Shown here piece by piece: positions 907 through 23,816 of a stretch of DNA of 64,000 bases; position 1 is the first letter of the stretch; the number at the start of each line of letters is the position of its first letter. Under the pieces are notes generated by a model. The model had not been told where the DNA came from. It did no database searches and worked only from the letters and a program-made list of their open reading frames with translations. The translations under genes and the position numbers were made by a program. Source of the DNA: Anaerolineae bacterium (GTDB lineage: Bacteria; Chloroflexota; Anaerolineae; Aggregatilineales; Phototrophicaceae); NCBI GenBank assembly GCA_022842885.1, contig JALHOR010000011.1:1-64000 (forward strand). Direction: 5' to 3'.

Positions 907-3750
907 TTAGGCATGCGGACGTTCTTTGGTTTCGTCTTCACGCAAGTGGCAGTTCTTATATTTTTTGCCACTGCCACACCAGCACGGGTCATTGCGTCCG
1001 GGTCGGTTGGTTTTACGCACAGTTTGCGCTGTTTCAGCGGCGGGGGCGTTGGTCACTGCCCGCGCCATTTGCATTTGCCGCTGCTGGATACGGGGCATTT
1101 CTGCCCGAATATTGAAGAATTCGCGCACGGCATGAATGGTGATCTGCCCTTGCATCTCATCAAACATGATGAAGCCTTCGCGCTTGTATTCCACCACCGG
1201 GTCACGTTGGGCGATAGACATCAACCCAATGCCTTCGCGCAGCATGTCTAAGGCGGTTAAGTGCCGCTGCCAATAAAAATCTATGACGCGCAGCATATGT
1301 AACCGTTGGGCGTAAGCCGCCGTCCCCGGATTCACTGCTTCTAGTTCAGCTTCTTTGCGTTTTAGTGCCTCGGCGGCGGCTACTGCCAATTGGTCTTGCA
1401 ATTGCGCCCGAGTCATGTCTACCATTGTATCGGGATTAATGCTTTCTGGCACGGGAAAAACGATAAACAACTCTTTATGCAGCAGGTCAACATCCCAATA
1501 TTCTAGGCTGTCTCCGGGTTCGGCATGGGTTTCGATGACTTGCAGGATGCGATGCTTAAGCAAGTCGAGATAATCTTCATGCAAGTCTTCGGGCGTTTTA
1601 TCGAGCCATTCATGGCGCTGATTATAAATAATTTCGCGCTGGCGGTTGACGACATCATCATATTCCAAGACGCGCTTGCGAATATCGAAGTTATGCCCTT
1701 CTACGCGGATTTGCGCTTGTTCGATAGAGCGCGTGACGAGATTGTGTTCTAACGGCTCATCTTCTGGTAAATTCGCCCATGACATGAATTTTTTGACTTG
1801 TTCGCCATTAAAGCGGCGCATCAAATCATCTTCTAGGCTTAGGTAAAAACGGGTTTCGCCGGGGTCGCCTTGCCGCCCAGCACGCCCACGCAGTTGGTTA
1901 TCAATGCGGCGAGCTTCGTGGCGTTCTGTGCCAAGCACATATAATCCGCCGGCGGCAAGCACTTTTTCACGGTCTTTGGCGCAGCGCATTTTGGCATCGG
2001 CAAATGTAGCTTCCCATTGTTCGGGCGTTGCGGCGGTCATATCCACCTCTTGCCGCCGCAGCATTTCGCGTGCCAAGCCTTCGGGGTTGCCGCCTAGCAA
2101 AATATCCACGCCGCGTCCTGCCATATTGGTGGCAATCGTGACAGCACCCGCCCGTCCAGCTTGGGCGATGATGCCAGCTTCGCGTTCATGCTGCTTGGCG
2201 TTCAGAATTTCGTGTGGCACTTTGGCTTTATCCAGCAGTTTGCCCAGATATTCCGATGTTTCGATAGCGACCGTGCCGACTAGAACCGGTTGCCCATTTT
2301 CATGCCGCGTTTTAATTTCGTTGACGACAGCGTTCCATTTGGCTCTTTGTGTCACGAAGATTAAATCTTCCATATCGGCACGCTGAATGTTCAAATTGGT
2401 TGGGATGGTGATGACATCCAGTTCGTAAATCTTCTCAAATTCTTCTTGTTCGGTGAGCGCCGTCCCCGTCATACCCGCTAATTTGTCATACATGCGGAAG
2501 TAATTCTGGAAGGTGATGGTCGCCATCGTCATATTTTCGCGCCGAATTTCTACGCCTTCTTTTGCCTCAATGGCTTGGTGCAAGCCTTCGCTGAAGCGGC
2601 GTCCGGGCATCAAGCGCCCCGTGAAATCATCTACGATAACGACCTGTTTATCCTGCACCACATACTCATGGTCACGATGATACAGTGCCATCGCCCGCAA
2701 GCAGTTATCGAGATAGGGAATCATCTCGGCATTTTCAGCATGATAGAGATGATTAATGCCTAACAATTGCTCCACTCGCTCCACACCAGCTTCGGTCAAA
2801 TACGCGATGCGGTCTTTTTCGTCAATGATGTAATCGCCATCGGGTGCTTCATCGGCAATACTTTCGGGGCTGCTGCGCTTGAGTTTTTTGACGATTTGCG
2901 TAAATTTGGCGTAATAGTCGCTCGGCGGGTCAGCGGGACCGGAAATGATTAATGGTGTGCGGGCTTCATCAATCAGGATATTATCCACTTCATCCACGAT
3001 AGCAAAATTGAGGTCGCGCTGGGTGAGGCGGGTTTTTTCCCATGCCATATTATCGCGCAGATAATCGAAGCCAAATTCGTTATTTGTGCCGTAGGTGATG
3101 TCCGCTTCGTAGGCGCGGCGGCGGGATACTTTTTCAAGATTTTGATAGCGGGCATCGGCTGAGGGGGCATTGGGATTAAAGATGAACGAGCCTTCATCGG
3201 GATTACCCCCACCTGTATTCTGGATGACACCAGCAGTCATGCCCAGAAAATGATAGATGGGACCCATCGTTTGCAGCCCGAATTTGCTCAGATAATCATT
3301 GGGCGTGACCAAGTGAACGCCTTTGCCACTCAGCGCGTTCAGATACAGGGGCAGGGTAGCGACCAGCGTTTTGCCTTCGCCTGTTTTCATCTCGGCGATG
3401 CGCCCTTCGTGCAGCACCATACCGCCGATTAACTGCACATCGTAATGCCGCAAGCCAATGGTACGCACCGAGGCTTCGCGCACGACGGCGAAGGCTTCGT
3501 ATAAAATATCATCCAATGTTTCGCCATCAGCCAAGCGTTGTTTGAATGCTTGCGTTTTTGCCCGCAAGGCGTCATCACTCAGCGATTTCATATCGGCTTC
3601 AAATGCATTGACGGCTTCAACCCGTTCCCGGAATTTCGCCACCGCCCGATCCATCGGGTCGCCAAAGACGCTTTTCATCACACGCCGAAAAATACTCCCC
3701 TCGCGTTTGGGTTTTTCTGTGGAGGACGAGTCATTTTTGCTTTTGAACAT
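907..3750 (-). CDS. secA: Protein translocase ATPase SecA
   Basis: SecA, the cytoplasmic motor that drives preproteins through SecYEG. The 947 residues show the whole family layout: Walker A MKTGEGKT (121-128), DEVD box (253-256) followed by ILIDEARTP, preprotein cross-linking and second nucleotide-binding domains with TNMAGRGVDI and GRAGRQGDPG, the helical scaffold, and a C-terminal zinc/SecB-binding motif CWCGSGKKYKNCH. An insertion of about 35 residues between motifs I and II (around 176-210) makes it longer than the E. coli protein; such insertions occur in several phyla including Chloroflexota. DEVDN replaces the commoner DEVDS. The start at 3750 follows a GGTGA ribosome site and an extended -10 promoter. 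It appears to be transcribed alone. Confidence 0.98.
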   Translation of the reverse strand: MFKSKNDSSSTEKPKREGSIFRRVMKSVFGDPMDRAVAKFRERVEAVNAFEADMKSLSDDALRAKTQAFKQRLADGETLDDILYEAFAVVREASVRTIGLRHYDVQLIGGMVLHEGRIAEMKTGEGKTLVATLPLYLNALSGKGVHLVTPNDYLSKFGLQTMGPIYHFLGMTAGVIQNTGGGNPDEGSFIFNPNAPSADARYQNLEKVSRRRAYEADITYGTNNEFGFDYLRDNMAWEKTRLTQRDLNFAIVDEVDNILIDEARTPLIISGPADPPSDYYAKFTQIVKKLKRSSPESIADEAPDGDYIIDEKDRIAYLTEAGVERVEQLLGINHLYHAENAEMIPYLDNCLRAMALYHRDHEYVVQDKQVVIVDDFTGRLMPGRRFSEGLHQAIEAKEGVEIRRENMTMATITFQNYFRMYDKLAGMTGTALTEQEEFEKIYELDVITIPTNLNIQRADMEDLIFVTQRAKWNAVVNEIKTRHENGQPVLVGTVAIETSEYLGKLLDKAKVPHEILNAKQHEREAGIIAQAGRAGAVTIATNMAGRGVDILLGGNPEGLAREMLRRQEVDMTAATPEQWEATFADAKMRCAKDREKVLAAGGLYVLGTERHEARRIDNQLRGRAGRQGDPGETRFYLSLEDDLMRRFNGEQVKKFMSWANLPEDEPLEHNLVTRSIEQAQIRVEGHNFDIRKRVLEYDDVVNRQREIIYNQRHEWLDKTPEDLHEDYLDLLKHRILQVIETHAEPGDSLEYWDVDLLHKELFIVFPVPESINPDTMVDMTRAQLQDQLAVAAAEALKRKEAELEAVNPGTAAYAQRLHMLRVIDFYWQRHLTALDMLREGIGLMSIAQRDPVVEYKREGFIMFDEMQGQITIHAVREFFNIRAEMPRIQQRQMQMARAVTNAPAAETAQTVRKTNRPGRNDPCWCGSGKKYKNCHLREDETKERPHA

Positions 3751-3785
3751 AGAGTCACCGTCAGGTTATGTTTTTGGGTAGCGCC

Positions 3786-3794
3786 ATTATAGCA
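3786..3794 (-). promoter_or_regulatory. Extended -10 promoter of secA
   Basis: On the minus strand the sequence reads TGC-TATAAT, a perfect -10 hexamer with the TGn extension. It would place the transcription start near 3779, giving a leader of about 30 nt before the secA ATG at 3750. No strong -35 is visible, which is usual for extended -10 promoters. Confidence 0.55.
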
Positions 3795-3817
3795 TAGTGC
3801 CATCAGCAAACTGTTAG

Positions 3818-3842
3818 AAAAAAAGACCGCACTCAGCGCGGT
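3818..3842 (-). terminator. Intrinsic-terminator-like hairpin upstream of secA promoter
   Basis: Read on the minus strand, the stem ACCGC / GCGGT (3842-3826) is followed by CTTTTTTT, the signature of a rho-independent terminator. It lies just upstream of the secA promoter and between divergent genes, so it would insulate secA from antisense or read-through transcription coming from the right. The stem is short (5 GC-rich pairs plus possible A-U pairs). Confidence 0.45.
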
Positions 3843-3906
3843 ATTTTACTCGTTAGCATACTACAATCGTGCCACGATTCAATAACAAAACTATAAAAAG
3901 GATGCA

Positions 3907-4878
3907 ATGATAATGCAATTTATACGATTGGGGCGGACTGGGTTAAAAGTGAGCCGCTTGTGTTTAGGCACGATGACCTTTGGTTGGTCGGCAGATGAAA
4001 CTGAGTCATTTGCCATCATGAATAGAGCGTTTGAGGCGGGCATTAATTTCTTCGACACCGCAGATATTTATTCGCGCTGGATTGCGGGCAACCAAGGCGG
4101 CGAAAGCGAAACGATTATCGGCAAATGGCTGAAAGACAAACCGCGTCATGAACTTATCATCGCTACGAAAGTGCGCGGGCGCATGTGGAACGGGGCAAAT
4201 GGCGAAGGGTTGCATCGGCAGCATATTTTAAAAGCGGTAGAGGATAGCTTGCGCCGTTTGCAAACCGATTATATTGATTTGTATCAAACACATTTCCCGG
4301 ATGATACTACGCCGCTGGAAGAGACACTTTCGACATTGGATAGTCTCGTGCAATCTGGCAAGGTGCGCTACATCGGGTGCAGCAACTATCCAGCATGGCT
4401 GTTGATGAAAAACTTGTGGGTGAGCGATGTGCAGCGTTGGGCGCGATTTGATTGTTTGCAACCGCATTATAGTTTGTTTCATCGCAGTGAATTTGAACGC
4501 GAATTAGCGGCGGCTTGCCTTGACCAAGGCGTGGGGGTGATTCCCTACAGCCCGCTTGCTGCTGGGTTCGCCACTGGCAAATATACCCGTGACAACCGCC
4601 AACCGGAGACCACCCGCGAGAGCAGCGGCTTGATTCAGCGGCTCATCAATAATATGCAAGCCTATGATGCGCTGGATTTGGTGCGCGAGATTGCTCAGAC
4701 TCATGCCGTGCCGATGGCGCAAATTGCCTTAGCGTGGCAGCTATCAAAACCCGCTGTTACCGCACCGATTATTGGCGCACGCACGATCAGCCAATTGGAA
4801 GAAGTATTAGGCGCAGTGGATGTAAAACTCAGTGCGGAACAATTGCAACAGTTAGACGCCGCAACCGCGATGTTTTAG
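3907..4878 (+). CDS. Aldo/keto reductase
   Basis: A 323-residue NAD(P)H-dependent oxidoreductase of the aldo/keto reductase superfamily (TIM barrel), which reduces aldehydes and ketones. Opening strand LGRTGLKVSRLCLGTMTFG is typical. The catalytic tetrad is visible: D and Y in FFDTADIYS, K in IIATKVRG, H in YQTHFPDD. The C-terminal cofactor part carries PIIGARTISQLEE. It looks like the AKR family of general oxidoreductases (YajO/Tas-like) with no clue to substrate. Two nearby ATGs (3907, 3913) share the AAAAGG ribosome site; the first is taken. It is divergent from secA and seems monocistronic. Confidence 0.93.
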   Translation: MIMQFIRLGRTGLKVSRLCLGTMTFGWSADETESFAIMNRAFEAGINFFDTADIYSRWIAGNQGGESETIIGKWLKDKPRHELIIATKVRGRMWNGANGEGLHRQHILKAVEDSLRRLQTDYIDLYQTHFPDDTTPLEETLSTLDSLVQSGKVRYIGCSNYPAWLLMKNLWVSDVQRWARFDCLQPHYSLFHRSEFERELAAACLDQGVGVIPYSPLAAGFATGKYTRDNRQPETTRESSGLIQRLINNMQAYDALDLVREIAQTHAVPMAQIALAWQLSKPAVTAPIIGARTISQLEEVLGAVDVKLSAEQLQQLDAATAMF

Positions 4879-18120: not shown

Positions 18121-20007
18121 TTAAAATTGCGTCTGCTCTAAGATAATCTGAAAAAACTCAATGACACCAATGTTCGGATTATTAGCAATTTCGCGCAGTC
18201 CGTCATTCACAATTGCCCATTCATAAATCTTGAATACCAACAGCAAGGGAATCCCAAAACTGATGACACGGGTGGGCAGCCGCGCAATAGTGAGCGAAAT
18301 AGGTGCTTCGGAAATTTCGGCAAGCTCTTGGCGCTCATTGATGACTTTGAGCCGTTCCATGTTCCAATGGTCGCGCTCACTGTTGAGTTCGATAAATTCA
18401 TAGAGCATATTAATTTTTTCATCTTGGTTGGTGGGGACGGTGCGGCGGCGCTGCCAGATGGTTTCAGCGCGTTTGAGTTTGTTTTGAACTTCGTCAATGA
18501 TTTGGTCAGCCCGTTTTAAGTCACGTTCTAAGTGTGTGCTGCGGTTGGTGCGCCAGCGCGATTGTCCGCGCCCATACGGAATACGAATGAAAATAAAGTA
18601 ATGAACGTAGAGCAGAATCAACGGAATCAGCACATCAAATGCTAGCACGCGCCCTAGTTCTTGCGGCAGTTGTGGCAACCGTCCTTCGCTCAAGACTTGG
18701 CTAAAGGGGATGGCACATAGATACAGCGTGATAATCAAAATAATCAGTTGCGAGATGGGCAGTTTTTTCACCAAATCGTCGCGGGTATAGGCGTCCACTT
18801 TGGAGTCTGCTAATACATAAGCATAAATTCCCAGTAAGACGATGGTCAACACATAAAACGGGAAAGCAAAGACAACGGCAAGGGCTTGGTCGGAGGTATC
18901 AATCAGCGCATTTTGCGATAATTGTTGACGCAGGGTATCTAACAAGCCAATGCTATCATTCTCGAACAAGACCAAATGCAGCGGAATGAAAGCGATAAAG
19001 ACGCCGCACATCAGCAAAATATCCATATCGGAGATGGTACTTAGCCAATTGCGGACTCGTTCTGGCAGGAGGGTCGTCAAATTATCAGGCAGAAATCGCT
19101 GCCGTAAACCGCGCCGGCTGGTATAGACCAAGACCACCACGAAAAAAATCAGCATCCATAACACAGGCGAGAGCGCCAACACATTTTGGTCAAGGTCGGC
19201 TGTTCCTAATAAATCAGCAGTGCGCGAATCGCTCAGGCGTGTGAAATGGCGAACAATGACCATGGTGGCTGTGAAAAGTGCCACTGGCGCTAATAACCGC
19301 GCTAACCTTACCCAAATTTGATTGTTAGACAGCCAGCGATTCCAACGGCGTAACCACATCAATTGCAACATCAGATAATAAACAATCACCATCACCAGCA
19401 GCAGCGCAGCATATACCGGATTGGCATATAGCGTGAATATCTCTGGTTGGAGCAACTGTGCCAATTGGCTGCCTGCCACAACTGCCAATAAGCCGGCAGC
19501 AATCATTTCATTGCCGACTACCAAGACTTTTTCCCAGATAGGCAATTTTGAAATAAAGCTATCATTCCCCACCGGTGTGAGCGCGAACAACGTCAATAAT
19601 GCCCGGAAGGTGATTGCCAAAAATAAAATCAACAGAATATAAAACAACGTACTGTCTTTGCCGTCGGGCGTGGTTGCTGCCAATTGGCGATACACGCGCA
19701 CCCATAACAAGCTGTAGCACCAAAAGAGGGCGATATACGTGGCGTGGCTGCGGTCAAACAGGCGGCGCAAAAAGAAATCCTGCACAGGGTCAAATGCTGC
19801 CAATGCTGTGAGCATGACGACGCTGATGCCCGATACCACACTCAGTAAAAAATCGCCATTCAGGAATTGCAAGCCGCTGTAAAGAACCCCAATTGCCAAT
19901 AGGGTCGGCACAAAGTAACGGTCAAACAGGGTATCGTCCGAAATGCGGACAACCTGCAAAAATTGATGGGTGATTGGGCGTTTAACTTGCGGATTCTCTG
20001 AGGTCAT
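18121..20007 (-). CDS. Large polytopic membrane protein with coiled coil, unknown
   Basis: A 628-residue protein with about 12 predicted membrane spans up to residue about 490, then a charged coiled-coil stretch (residues about 495-575, ERDLKRADQIIDEVQNKLKR and onward), and a last amphipathic or membrane segment near 590-612. I do not recognise the family. The sequence just upstream of its ATG is the truncated 3' end of a uma2 gene; in the intact downstream copy the same junction sequence shows that this gene once followed uma2 at a distance of 8 nt. No ribosome site is visible at 20007, so translation may originally have been coupled to uma2. Confidence 0.65.
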   Translation of the reverse strand: MTSENPQVKRPITHQFLQVVRISDDTLFDRYFVPTLLAIGVLYSGLQFLNGDFLLSVVSGISVVMLTALAAFDPVQDFFLRRLFDRSHATYIALFWCYSLLWVRVYRQLAATTPDGKDSTLFYILLILFLAITFRALLTLFALTPVGNDSFISKLPIWEKVLVVGNEMIAAGLLAVVAGSQLAQLLQPEIFTLYANPVYAALLLVMVIVYYLMLQLMWLRRWNRWLSNNQIWVRLARLLAPVALFTATMVIVRHFTRLSDSRTADLLGTADLDQNVLALSPVLWMLIFFVVVLVYTSRRGLRQRFLPDNLTTLLPERVRNWLSTISDMDILLMCGVFIAFIPLHLVLFENDSIGLLDTLRQQLSQNALIDTSDQALAVVFAFPFYVLTIVLLGIYAYVLADSKVDAYTRDDLVKKLPISQLIILIITLYLCAIPFSQVLSEGRLPQLPQELGRVLAFDVLIPLILLYVHYFIFIRIPYGRGQSRWRTNRSTHLERDLKRADQIIDEVQNKLKRAETIWQRRRTVPTNQDEKINMLYEFIELNSERDHWNMERLKVINERQELAEISEAPISLTIARLPTRVISFGIPLLLVFKIYEWAIVNDGLREIANNPNIGVIEFFQIILEQTQF

Positions 20008-20092
20008 GAGCGCGACTAATCACGAAAAATACGTTTGACGAGTAGTTGGAATTCTGACAATATATTATCACCCATTCATTATAGCGTCTATT
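20001..20092. repeat. Left direct repeat flanking the RHS island
   Basis: Matches 23123-23211. The first 60 nt differ at only four positions and the remainder aligns with small gaps. It contains the start codon of the 628-residue membrane-protein gene and a 3' remnant of uma2. Beyond 20092 the two copies diverge and RHS sequence begins. Confidence 0.85.
20016..20092 (-). pseudogene. 3' remnant of a uma2 (DUF820) gene
   Basis: On the minus strand the last codons read ILSEFQLLVKRIFRD then TAG, against ILPEFQLPVKHIFRD at the end of the intact uma2 gene at 23138. Only about 20 codons remain; the rest of the gene has been replaced by RHS sequence from 20093. Confidence 0.8.
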
Positions 20093-20173
20093 TACCCTGA
20101 TGCCGCCATCCAGTATACCGGCGCTTGGACGAATGCCGCACCTTACAAAGTCTCTACCGAATGGTCGGCATAT

Positions 20174-21979
20174 TTGAAGATGGTGGTATTTGGCAAAGAA
20201 TTGTATGGCACAGGCAGCGACCACAGCCGCTTTGATGTGTATGTGAATAACACCCTCTGGCAGAGTTTTGATGGTTATGCCGCCGCGTCGGGGGAAGCCG
20301 CTGCCAGCCTTGTGTTGACTGAAGAAGGGTGGCACGTTTTTGAAATCCGCAACACGCATGACAAAACAGCGGCAGCCACGAATTACAAAATTCAGTTTAA
20401 GAGCCTCAGCGCAACATCGCGCGACTTTGTGCAACAGGACATCGCCTATACCTATGATGACCTGAGCCGATTACTCACCGCCAACTACAACGGTGGCGAT
20501 ACAATCTATGCCTATCTTTACGATGTGGCAGGCAATCGGCGGAGTGAGGCGCTTTCTGGGGCAAGTGTCACTGCCGAACTTACCGAGTATGAATACAACG
20601 CTGCCAATCAACTCCAGCGCAATCGGGTAGATGGTGGGGCTTGGGTGAATTTTACCTATGATGCCAACGGCAACCTCACCTCCGACGGCGCGAACAGTTA
20701 TACTTGGGATAGAGCCAATCGGATGATGACAGCAGGCACGACTTCTTATCAATACAATGGTGCAGGTAATCGCATTCAACAATCCGTCGGTGGGGTTGCT
20801 ACAAAATATTTATTGGATTTGCAGCCGGGATTAGCGGTGGCACTGGCACAAACGACCAACGGACAAACTACCCGCTTCGTTCATGCCCCGACTGGCATTT
20901 ATGCACATGAAGACCCTGCCGGAAATTGGGTTTATACGGGACAAGATGGACTTGGCTCAGTGTTAAACGAAGTCAATGCTGCGGGTGCTGTTCAATTTGG
21001 ACGGCAGCTTGACCCCTATGGCAAGTTGCTATCTTCGCAAGGCACAACCGTTTCGCCCTATGAATACACCGGTGAGATGAAAGATAGCATTGGGTTATTG
21101 CATTTGCGAGCGCGTAACTATGCACCAAGTCTAGGTGTATTTGCAAGTTTAGATCTGTTTGAAGGTAAGTTTGATGAACCGCTGTCGCTCAACAGCTACG
21201 GCTATGTAAGCGGCAATCCAGTCAATCAAGTCGATCCTAGTGGGTTATGTTGGGCAAATACCAGTATTTCAGCAGATAAGCAATCGCAATGTTATGATGG
21301 ATGGCTGGCGTATATATCGGTCATTAATGAAACTTATACCCAAAATTGGCCACGGGCTGTACAAATTCTAATGACTCAGGAGGCACGTTACTGGTCAAAT
21401 TTGCCGTACAATCAATTTGTCATCCAGTGGAATGGTGTCCGTCCGCCCGCAAGTAACAATCCGGGTGGTGAAATCTTGGCGATGGGAGTGCCATTGGCAG
21501 CAACAACATCATCAGTCAACCCTTTTCCGGGTCCAGAAGATGTAGCCGCTTTCGGAATTGCGTTATGTGTTACAGGTTTAGCAATTCTTGCCGCTGCGAC
21601 TACCACAATAACTTTGCCATTGAGACCGCAAATTAATTTTGCGAAGCGTAGTGGTGAAAGAATAAGCTGGGAATCAAACTTTCAGGCAGCAAAAGATGCC
21701 CTTGGAGCATGTATTGCTTGCGGCACAGCCGCTCTCTTGAATCCAAAGTTTTGTAAGGTTAACGTTGTTTCAGGTCATGGTCAACCTGGACATCATTTTC
21801 ATATTTTCAAGTTCCATCAGGATGGCTCATGCTACTGTCGGATTCAACCTGATGATCCATATGTAAAGCCGCTTGCAAGCGACTATGCCGGACCGCCAGG
21901 TGGACCGCATTTTCCATTGACCACCCCACCCATCAATCCAGAACTCTCAATTTGCACTGGCGGTTGGATGCAAACGTAG
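20174..21979 (+). CDS. RHS-repeat protein with C-terminal toxin-like region, 5' truncated
   Basis: The 601 residues carry YD repeats (YTYDDLSRLLTANYNGG, YEYNAANQL, FTYDANGNL) and the RHS core ending LRARNYAPSLGVFASLDLFE then NPVNQVDPSGL at about residue 355. The remaining 245 residues are variable: a hydrophobic stretch (456-482) and a Cys/His-rich end with GACIACG and HGQPGHHFHIF (about 534-544). This is the layout of a polymorphic toxin. Homology to the second RHS gene extends upstream, in frame, to 20093, then stops at the uma2 remnant, so signal peptide and shell-forming repeats are missing. Whether the protein is exported or expressed is therefore doubtful. Toxin chemistry is unknown; a papain-like Cys/His pair is one speculative reading. 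Confidence 0.8.
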   Translation: MKMVVFGKELYGTGSDHSRFDVYVNNTLWQSFDGYAAASGEAAASLVLTEEGWHVFEIRNTHDKTAAATNYKIQFKSLSATSRDFVQQDIAYTYDDLSRLLTANYNGGDTIYAYLYDVAGNRRSEALSGASVTAELTEYEYNAANQLQRNRVDGGAWVNFTYDANGNLTSDGANSYTWDRANRMMTAGTTSYQYNGAGNRIQQSVGGVATKYLLDLQPGLAVALAQTTNGQTTRFVHAPTGIYAHEDPAGNWVYTGQDGLGSVLNEVNAAGAVQFGRQLDPYGKLLSSQGTTVSPYEYTGEMKDSIGLLHLRARNYAPSLGVFASLDLFEGKFDEPLSLNSYGYVSGNPVNQVDPSGLCWANTSISADKQSQCYDGWLAYISVINETYTQNWPRAVQILMTQEARYWSNLPYNQFVIQWNGVRPPASNNPGGEILAMGVPLAATTSSVNPFPGPEDVAAFGIALCVTGLAILAAATTTITLPLRPQINFAKRSGERISWESNFQAAKDALGACIACGTAALLNPKFCKVNVVSGHGQPGHHFHIFKFHQDGSCYCRIQPDDPYVKPLASDYAGPPGGPHFPLTTPPINPELSICTGGWMQT

Positions 21980-22067
21980 GCGTAGTTATGATATAGACAC
22001 TACAATATGGAAGGATATTGAGAATCTTCCCATATTGTAGCAAAGCAAACAATATGAAGAGGTAAAT

Positions 22068-22766
22068 ATGTATAAAAGCATAGTTGTTGGTTTTGACGCA
22101 CGCGAGATGTGGCTTGACATTGATTCCCAATGGACGCAGGACAAGAAAACTTCCTTTCTTTTGAGGCAAAATATCTCAAAACCCTTATCCGTTGATAGTT
22201 ACATTTGGTATTCGGTGTTCTCAGAATTACTAGAACCCCATTTATGGCACTCTATAGCCATGCAAGCCATGTATTCTGAACCCGATTGGAACGATATATT
22301 TTCAGAGAGTAGAAAAATATCTGTGCCACCGCGTTTTTACAGACCAAGAAGAGTATGGAGAAATTTGGCTTCACTGCGAGATCATCTTCACCAGTCTTGG
22401 GGAAGTGGTTGGAAGCCCTGTTACCTTGTGGCAGTGGTTGAGGTCGTTAAGAATGAAATAGATATAGAGGATGAAGTAGATTCAGAGCCTATTTTCCCTA
22501 ACATTGTGGATGAGGAATGGCGGCTGTTGGGCTACGATGTGGCTGATTATGAATTGATTTCAGGATTATTCGAAGGGCAAATGGAGCCAGACACAGCTTT
22601 AAAATTAAGAAACGAGTGGCAAAACTATCTGAATGAGTATCATCTATTCACAGAACCTCAAAAAGCATTTGACTATATTCGTATAGCTGACCGGAAGTAT
22701 CCTTCCCATATGCCTTATTATGTTTATGCGCTATATGGTATTGAGGGAAAATTCCCAATAATCTAA
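22068..22766 (+). CDS. Candidate immunity protein for the RHS toxin, unknown family
   Basis: A 232-residue soluble protein, acidic in its middle part (EIDIEDEVDSEPIF), rich in Trp and Tyr, with no signal peptide or membrane span. It starts 88 nt after the RHS stop, on the same strand, with GAAGAGG as ribosome site, and is followed directly by an orphan RHS fragment. Small acidic genes in that position are usually immunity proteins that bind the cognate toxin domain. It is more AT-rich than the surrounding chromosome. I do not recognise the fold; the role is inferred only from position. Confidence 0.6.
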   Translation: MYKSIVVGFDAREMWLDIDSQWTQDKKTSFLLRQNISKPLSVDSYIWYSVFSELLEPHLWHSIAMQAMYSEPDWNDIFSESRKISVPPRFYRPRRVWRNLASLRDHLHQSWGSGWKPCYLVAVVEVVKNEIDIEDEVDSEPIFPNIVDEEWRLLGYDVADYELISGLFEGQMEPDTALKLRNEWQNYLNEYHLFTEPQKAFDYIRIADRKYPSHMPYYVYALYGIEGKFPII

Positions 22767-22773
22767 AGAATTA

Positions 22774-23131
22774 TGCATAATATCGCATTCAACAATCCAC
22801 CAGCAACATCATCACCAAATATCTACTGGATACCCAACCCGGTCTCGCATTGGTCATCGCCCAGACGACCGGCACGAACACGGAGCGATATATTCATGCT
22901 CCCAGAGGCATTCACGCCATTGAAAATCAGGCTGGCAACTGGTCGTACCTGCTTCAGGATGGGCTTGGTTCGGTGCGAGGCGTGGTGGAGGCAACGGGGA
23001 CTACGGCGGCTTCGCACAATTATTCGCCCTACGGTGAACCCGATGCGGCGCTGAGTGGCTTCGCCTTCACGGGTGAACAGCGCGATATCACTGGCTTCAA
23101 TACGAGAAACAGGTATCTCAGCAGGTCATGA
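22774..23131 (+). pseudogene. Orphan RHS core fragment
   Basis: Homology with the other two RHS genes begins abruptly near 22784 (RIQQSTSNIITKYLLDTQPG) after an in-frame stop and runs through YIHAPRGIHA, QDGLGSVRG and FAFTGEQRDITGFN to NTRNRYLSRS, where it is cut by the right direct repeat at 23123. No N-terminal part, no DPxGL junction and no toxin domain remain. An ATG at 22850 opens a 93-codon frame that is probably not a functional gene. It is 80% similar or more to the RHS gene at the right end of the window over the shared stretch, judging by eye. Confidence 0.8.
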
Positions 23132-23211
23132 GCGCGACTAATCACGAAAAATATGTTTGACGGGTAGTTGGAACTCTGGCAATATATCACCACCATTGAG
23201 AATATCGTCTA
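23123..23211. repeat. Right direct repeat flanking the RHS island
   Basis: Second copy of the repeat at 20001-20092. Here it forms the 3' end of the intact uma2 gene and truncates the orphan RHS fragment on its left. Confidence 0.85.
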
Positions 23212-23701
23212 TTCCAGCGGTGCGGATAAGTTTGCCATATTCATAAACCTCTACTTCGCGCCGATTGGGAAAGACCAACCAGAACAAAGGAATTTGCGCC
23301 GCTTGGTAAAGCTGTAATTTTTTGCTGATGCGTTCATTGGGTTTTTTAAGATCACTTGGTGATACAACTTCCACAATAAAATCAGGCGCAACGGGATAAT
23401 AGCCTTCATCGTCTGGTTCGGTATGTTTGGCTGAACGCAAAAAAGCGACATCTGGCATCACTCGCGCTCCATCAACGATGTAACCCCCATCTGCGCCCGT
23501 TACATCCCCTATGTCCGAATCGCCCACAAAATTATTGATTGCCGTCAAAATCCATCCAGCGATTTTTGAGCCACGCCGATAAGTGACCAATTCGTATACC
23601 TCACCCTCTACATACTCTAGGCGTTTATCTGCGTTTTCTGGCAGATGCACCAGTTCAATAAATTCTTGTGGTGTATATGCGACTTTAGGAAAAAAGACCA
23701 T
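23138..23701 (-). CDS. Uma2-family (DUF820) putative endonuclease
   Basis: A 187-residue protein of the Uma2/DUF820 family, a PD-(D/E)XK nuclease-like fold that is highly expanded in Cyanobacteria and Chloroflexota. The core is visible: EYVEGEVYEL near the N terminus, MPDVAFLR and PDFIVEVVSPSD (the D...ExV active-site strand), then KLQLYQAAQIPLFWLV. No cellular role is established for the family. I take ATG 23701, with ribosome site AAAGGTAA, rather than an upstream Met at 23761. Its 3' end is duplicated at 20016-20092, next to the membrane-protein gene it presumably used to precede. Confidence 0.85.
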   Translation of the reverse strand: MVFFPKVAYTPQEFIELVHLPENADKRLEYVEGEVYELVTYRRGSKIAGWILTAINNFVGDSDIGDVTGADGGYIVDGARVMPDVAFLRSAKHTEPDDEGYYPVAPDFIVEVVSPSDLKKPNERISKKLQLYQAAQIPLFWLVFPNRREVEVYEYGKLIRTAGIDDILNGGDILPEFQLPVKHIFRD

Positions 23702-23816
23702 GTTGTTACCTTTGCCATGTGGACTGTTTTTATTGTACTGTGTTTTTTGCATATGGTGCATTTGGAGCGCGTTTGAGAAATAAGAAGGCGCGACCTGATT
23801 AAATTGAATCGTTGGG

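Follow-up and report, generated by a model that had tools for sequence, protein, structure and literature searches.

Results

An RHS fragment and two further genes between direct repeats

The window, by which we mean the whole stretch of 64,000 nucleotides analysed here, contains an open reading frame of 601 amino acids on its plus strand (20174-21979, TTG start), in which profile searches detect an RHS core by matches to TIGR03696 (E=1.6e-17, residues 280-358) and PF05593 (RHS_repeat, E=4.4e-5). The core ends in the motif DPSGL at residues 354-358, giving the combination of RHS core and DPxGL-type junction before a variable C-terminus that is typical of RHS polymorphic toxins. We count 243 residues beyond the junction, and the original prediction of an RHS gene with about 245 residues after DPSGL is thus confirmed. 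On the same strand follow a gene for an acidic protein of 232 amino acids (22068-22766) and an orphan RHS piece (approximately 22783-23122), both of which had also been predicted.

The RHS gene is a 5'-truncated orphan fragment. The truncated core extends through DPSGL (20093-21247, plus strand), and its coding homology reaches upstream to about position 20099, ahead of the nominal TTG start at 20174 and upstream of any ATG, GTG or TTG; no in-frame ATG, GTG or TTG is present between the upstream stop and the nominal start (20039-20174). The gene therefore has the truncated core, lacking a translation start and export signals, by which orphan rhs-CT genes are recognised.

The segment from 20093 to 23122 is bounded by an imperfect direct repeat of about 90 bp (20001-20092 on the left, 23123-23213 on the right; 92% over 72 nt, 88% over about 92 nt), which occurs in the genome in these two copies only and is unusually long for a target-site duplication. 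The right copy overlaps the 3' end of a Uma2 gene (23138-23761, minus strand) and also holds the first bases of a gene for a 628-aa protein. In three genomes of other genera (G240, G494 and G481), the 628-aa gene is separated from a methylmalonyl-CoA mutase gene by 57-142 bp that are empty; in the window, the same interval measures approximately 3.8 kb and includes the RHS segment and the Uma2 gene. Since the right repeat covers one end each of the 628-aa and Uma2 genes, it seems that the RHS segment was inserted at a junction already present, which was thereby duplicated. Scans for promoters and terminators gave matches at chance level and Rfam gave none, while a strong hairpin with no T-run (22000-22040, plus strand; -18.4 kcal/mol, z -2.96) lies between the RHS gene and the 232-aa gene.

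A common linker precedes the variable tip

A search of 154 genomes of the order identified three RHS proteins of other genera (L032, L033 and L034) that carry, directly after a DPSGL-type junction, a linker of about 125 residues with 29-41% identity to window positions 21248-21619 (plus strand). This pre-toxin linker includes the hydrophobic segment VAAFGIALCVTGLAILAAA, with a hydropathy of 2.38 over 19 residues. Past the linker, the tip and the downstream gene differ in each of the three proteins, after which RHS core sequence appears again; in L033, the downstream gene encodes a HEAT-repeat protein, and in L034 one with weak similarity to Imm32 (E=5e-4, below the cut-off). Variable tips are thus exchanged on a common upstream part. 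As the tips of these relatives differ after the linker, the variable part of the window protein comprises only its last approximately 115 residues, which places the toxin domain at about residues 483-601 and not in all 243 residues after DPSGL. The length originally given for the non-RHS region was correct, but about 125 of its residues are a linker common to other RHS proteins. Besides this linker, the original prediction did not mention the 5' truncation and insertion, or the occurrence, described below, of homologs of the 232-aa protein away from RHS genes. In L033 (2-1505), the RHS tip is very Cys-rich (GCYKRHCGCGAPGNRDCW) and the HEAT-repeat protein follows in immunity position.

The tip is rich in cysteine and matches no family in the databases searched

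The variable C-terminal domain, a putative toxin domain of about 115-119 residues (21620-21979, plus strand), contains the two motifs that had drawn attention to it: GACIACG, with Cys513 and Cys516, and HGQPGHHFHIF, with His535, His540, His541 and His543. Its description as Cys/His-rich holds for cysteine, of which the last 119 residues contain six where neighbouring genes have a background of 0.7% (binomial P ~3e-4), and is marginal for histidine, also with six (P ~0.07). The reading frame stays open for 119 codons past the linker, which has a chance probability of approximately 0.003, and neither linker nor tip contains a stop or a frameshift. Codon usage of the tip in its own frame is unlike that of host genes and gives a weak coding signal. 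The idea that the toxin had been frameshifted into another frame was rejected, as the other frames hold many stops.

The tip had no counterpart in Pfam, NCBIfam, PADLOC, PHROGs or the PDB, in collections of plasmids, phages, viral contigs and genome contigs, or in the searched genomes of the phylum, and pairwise comparison with other RHS tips and with a Tox-PL-2 domain gave nothing. Weak matches in Chloroflexota (L012-L021) were dismissed as chance, containing internal stops or running antisense to other genes. Among the searches as a whole, hits to MmeI_TRD (E=0.035-0.18), SH3b_T, IL7-receptor and 2_5_RNA_ligase2 were sub-threshold noise. The earlier statement that neither the tip nor the 232-aa protein has a recognisable domain agrees with the lack of profile matches for both. 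The structure prediction proposed at that time was carried out (AlphaFold2, no alignment), and the models are uninterpretable, with a pLDDT of 38.8 for the tip and 35.1 for the 232-aa protein; the tip model is too poor for judging the fold, and a fold search is meaningless. That no search returned a homolog of the tip, from which toxicity or conserved catalytic residues could be read, weighs against its assignment as a toxin.

What chemistry might such a tip perform? A first guess is a cysteine hydrolase of papain-like type, in which Cys513 or Cys516 would act together with a histidine from GHHFH. The papain-like Cys-His dyad, a speculative reading of the original prediction, did not gain support. 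The residues do occur in the order Cys, His, Asp, in the model, of very low confidence, a helix covers CxxC and strands fall at HFHIF and at CYCR, and a Tox-PL-2 domain (PF15643), in which a His near a predicted strand likewise comes after CxxC, is present in a relative that also carries RHS tips. Tox-PL-2 domains are characterised by the residues C, NxxH and DN (PMC3482391), however, and the tip has neither NxxH nor DN, with QPGH in place of the former. Its Cys-His spacing of about 24-30 residues is roughly half the 49-52 or so in that relative (L077), the sequence similarity between the two domains is not significant (p=0.15-0.19), no Pfam profile matches the tip up to E=10, and the pLDDT of the model is only 38.8. 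We therefore regard a papain-like hydrolase as improbable. Only one Tox-PL-2 member was found in all, and the profile has no match in the window's own genome. In the genome of that member (G488), the domain lies beside a Hint-like region (L077, 114-862), and an RHS tip with the common linker is present as well.

Nucleases are common among RHS tips. If the tip were a metal-binding nuclease, zinc or a catalytic metal would be bound by CxxCG and GHH in an HNH or treble-clef-like arrangement. In favour of this are the six Cys and six His within 119 residues, with clusters CxxC and GHHxH, and one other tip in this genome, on contig C18, that is Tox-REase-2-like. Against it, profiles for HNH/EndoVII and other nucleases do not match the tip, CxxC falls in a helix predicted with low confidence, and the final Asn or His of an HNH motif is not evident, and we regard this chemistry, too, as improbable.

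The 232-aa protein occupies the immunity position

The gene for the 232-aa protein (plus strand) starts with ATG 88 bp downstream of the RHS gene, in immunity position, and has a GAGG-type ribosome-binding site upstream. Its product, a putative immunity protein, has a pI of 4.95, with 36 D/E against 24 K/R. We found 12 homologs in 8 other genomes of the same order, giving a patchy distribution over 9 of 154 genomes, with three paralogs in G438 and two each in G444 and G457. Invariant residues of the family include W47, W97, G155, D157, L188, N189, H192 and L193. None of the 12 members matches a Pfam immunity family (Imm, SUKH, SuFu); in NCBIfam, the protein and its relatives yield sub-cut-off or non-immunity matches only, and a match of the relative L051 to TIGR04383 was rejected, as it scores 27 bits where the cut-off is 50. 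PHROG 8655, an unannotated short family, matches the 232-aa protein at E=0.0017 over 33 residues, and plasmids, phages, viral contigs and genome contigs contain nothing similar.

No RHS gene lies near any of the 12 homologs in the stretches read, several of which are on short contigs. With all relatives located away from RHS genes, it is position and composition that link the 232-aa protein to this toxin. The gene might instead be a mobile passenger, belonging to a family with another role, and not an antidote; the absence of RHS neighbours from all 12 homologs and the paralogs in some genomes would fit such a role. We nevertheless consider this unlikely, because the gene fills the exact immunity slot between the tip and the post-immunity core fragment, which unrelated genes occupy in relatives and at two further loci of this genome, and because its GC3 matches that of the tip and not that of the core. 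The patchy, RHS-free occurrence of the family is also compatible with orphan immunity genes. In addition, a gene with weak resemblance to SUKH neighbours the homolog in one relative (L049). In the same relative (2101-4419), the homolog stands tail to tail with a gene for a 507-aa protein that by eye resembles an eCIS-type toxin carrier.

The layout recurs in the genome

The core fragment after the putative immunity gene is truncated, shows 45% identity to core residues 195-333, and represents the same part of the core that follows two other C-terminal modules in the genome. At both of these loci, C11:63k and C18, the order of core, tip, downstream gene and core fragment is repeated, which, together with the relatives L032-L034, bears out the polymorphic-toxin layout of the original prediction. 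The three post-immunity fragments share 82-88% DNA identity, which might permit recombination (C11:63k 82% and C18 88% identical to that of the window); in the C18 core itself, the matching part reaches 92% identity with the window's fragment. The full-length RHS protein of the genome, encoded on C25 (2661 aa, DUF6531), has only about 30% protein identity to the window RHS and a C-terminus unrelated to the window tip in a pairwise test. GC3 falls at DPSGL, from 0.49 in the core to 0.36 in the tip (z=3.2), and is 0.39 in the 232-aa gene, the similarity of the latter two being as expected for a joined cassette.

The locus on C18 (L028 6152-8206; C18:14151-16205) consists of an RHS fragment, a tip that resembles Tox-REase-2 below the Pfam cut-off (E=4.6e-5), and a 132-aa gene in immunity position. 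That on C11 (L027 2782-6500; C11:62781-66499), which extends beyond the end of the window, has an RHS fragment, a Pro/Thr-rich linker and a long tip; a beta-propeller (PD40) gene takes the immunity position, with a core fragment behind it.

Discussion

Taken together, the truncated core, the linker shared with other RHS proteins, the exchanged tip and the gene in immunity position make it likely that this locus is an orphan Rhs-CT/immunity cassette. We infer that its C-terminal domain is an antibacterial toxin which the 232-aa protein neutralises. By sequence comparison, both the tip and the putative immunity family appear to be new to the databases searched; the layout itself is well known. 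More tentatively, the last approximately 115 residues may adopt a toxin fold that is new and depends on Cys and His, with the 232-aa protein as founder of a new immunity family, spread in the order as stand-alone shields against that group of toxins; we hold this extended proposal possible and somewhat doubtful.

How could such a cassette function? The RHS segment lies between the repeats of about 90 bp, in an intergenic region where other genera have nothing. Without an export leader or a proper start for the RHS protein, the module in its present form is probably expressed weakly or not at all. Recombination in the common core sequence could join it to a complete rhs gene, and only then would it become a delivered weapon. 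Orphan rhs-CT fragments that lack a start or export signals and are activated by recombination are known in Salmonella (PMC3967940). Possibly the module is not silent until recombination, and a low internal expression takes place, as described for an orphan module (PMC7043789). Meanwhile, the immunity gene, with its own ribosome-binding site, would protect its host and may defend it against toxin delivered by relatives; orphan immunity proteins are able to protect (PMC10539506).

The module could also be decaying. In its strongest form, this would make the locus a dead remnant, in which the RHS fragment has decayed, with a tip that no longer folds or acts, beside an orphan immunity gene that is still useful. 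The 5' truncation with loss of the start codon, the truncated post-immunity core piece, the lack of homologs and weak coding signal of the tip, and the occurrence of relatives of the 232-aa gene away from RHS toxins are all what such decay would leave behind. Yet the tip has remained open over a length that chance would rarely allow, and linker and tip are intact, so that we judge a dead remnant quite unlikely and continue to favour an orphan cassette.

A close described counterpart of such a cassette is the orphan rhs-CT/rhsI of Salmonella enterica LT2 (PMC3967940, PMC7043789), which likewise combines an RHS fragment lacking start and export signals, a variable tip after the DPxGL motif, an adjacent gene in immunity position and core sequence that, in the window, might permit recombination. 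In contrast to the Salmonella orphans, the window fragment has no main rhs gene directly ahead of it but stands alone in an insertion, has a core fragment on its far side as well, belongs to a genome whose complete RHS gene is on another contig and has a distant core, and carries different tip and immunity families. The order of core, hydrophobic pre-toxin region, variable tip and downstream gene in immunity position, and the exchange of cassettes, are shared with RHS polymorphic toxins in general (PMC3482391), from which the window differs in that its tip and immunity protein match no Pfam, NCBIfam or PADLOC family. Similarly, the 232-aa family resembles orphan immunity proteins (PMC10539506) in its patchy distribution and in lacking toxin neighbours, whereas its putative role is deduced from position and composition.

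Polymorphic toxins of Chloroflexota have been little studied, according to a full-text literature search, in which the terms occurred in two papers. Neither protein of the putative toxin/immunity pair at this locus has a recognised domain, and the pair is open to testing; the genome has the orphan-cassette layout three times, outside the Enterobacteriaceae. In the relative L034 (1-3297), RHS tips and small genes are arranged in a tandem array, and one of these tips is ADP-ribosyltransferase-like by eye.
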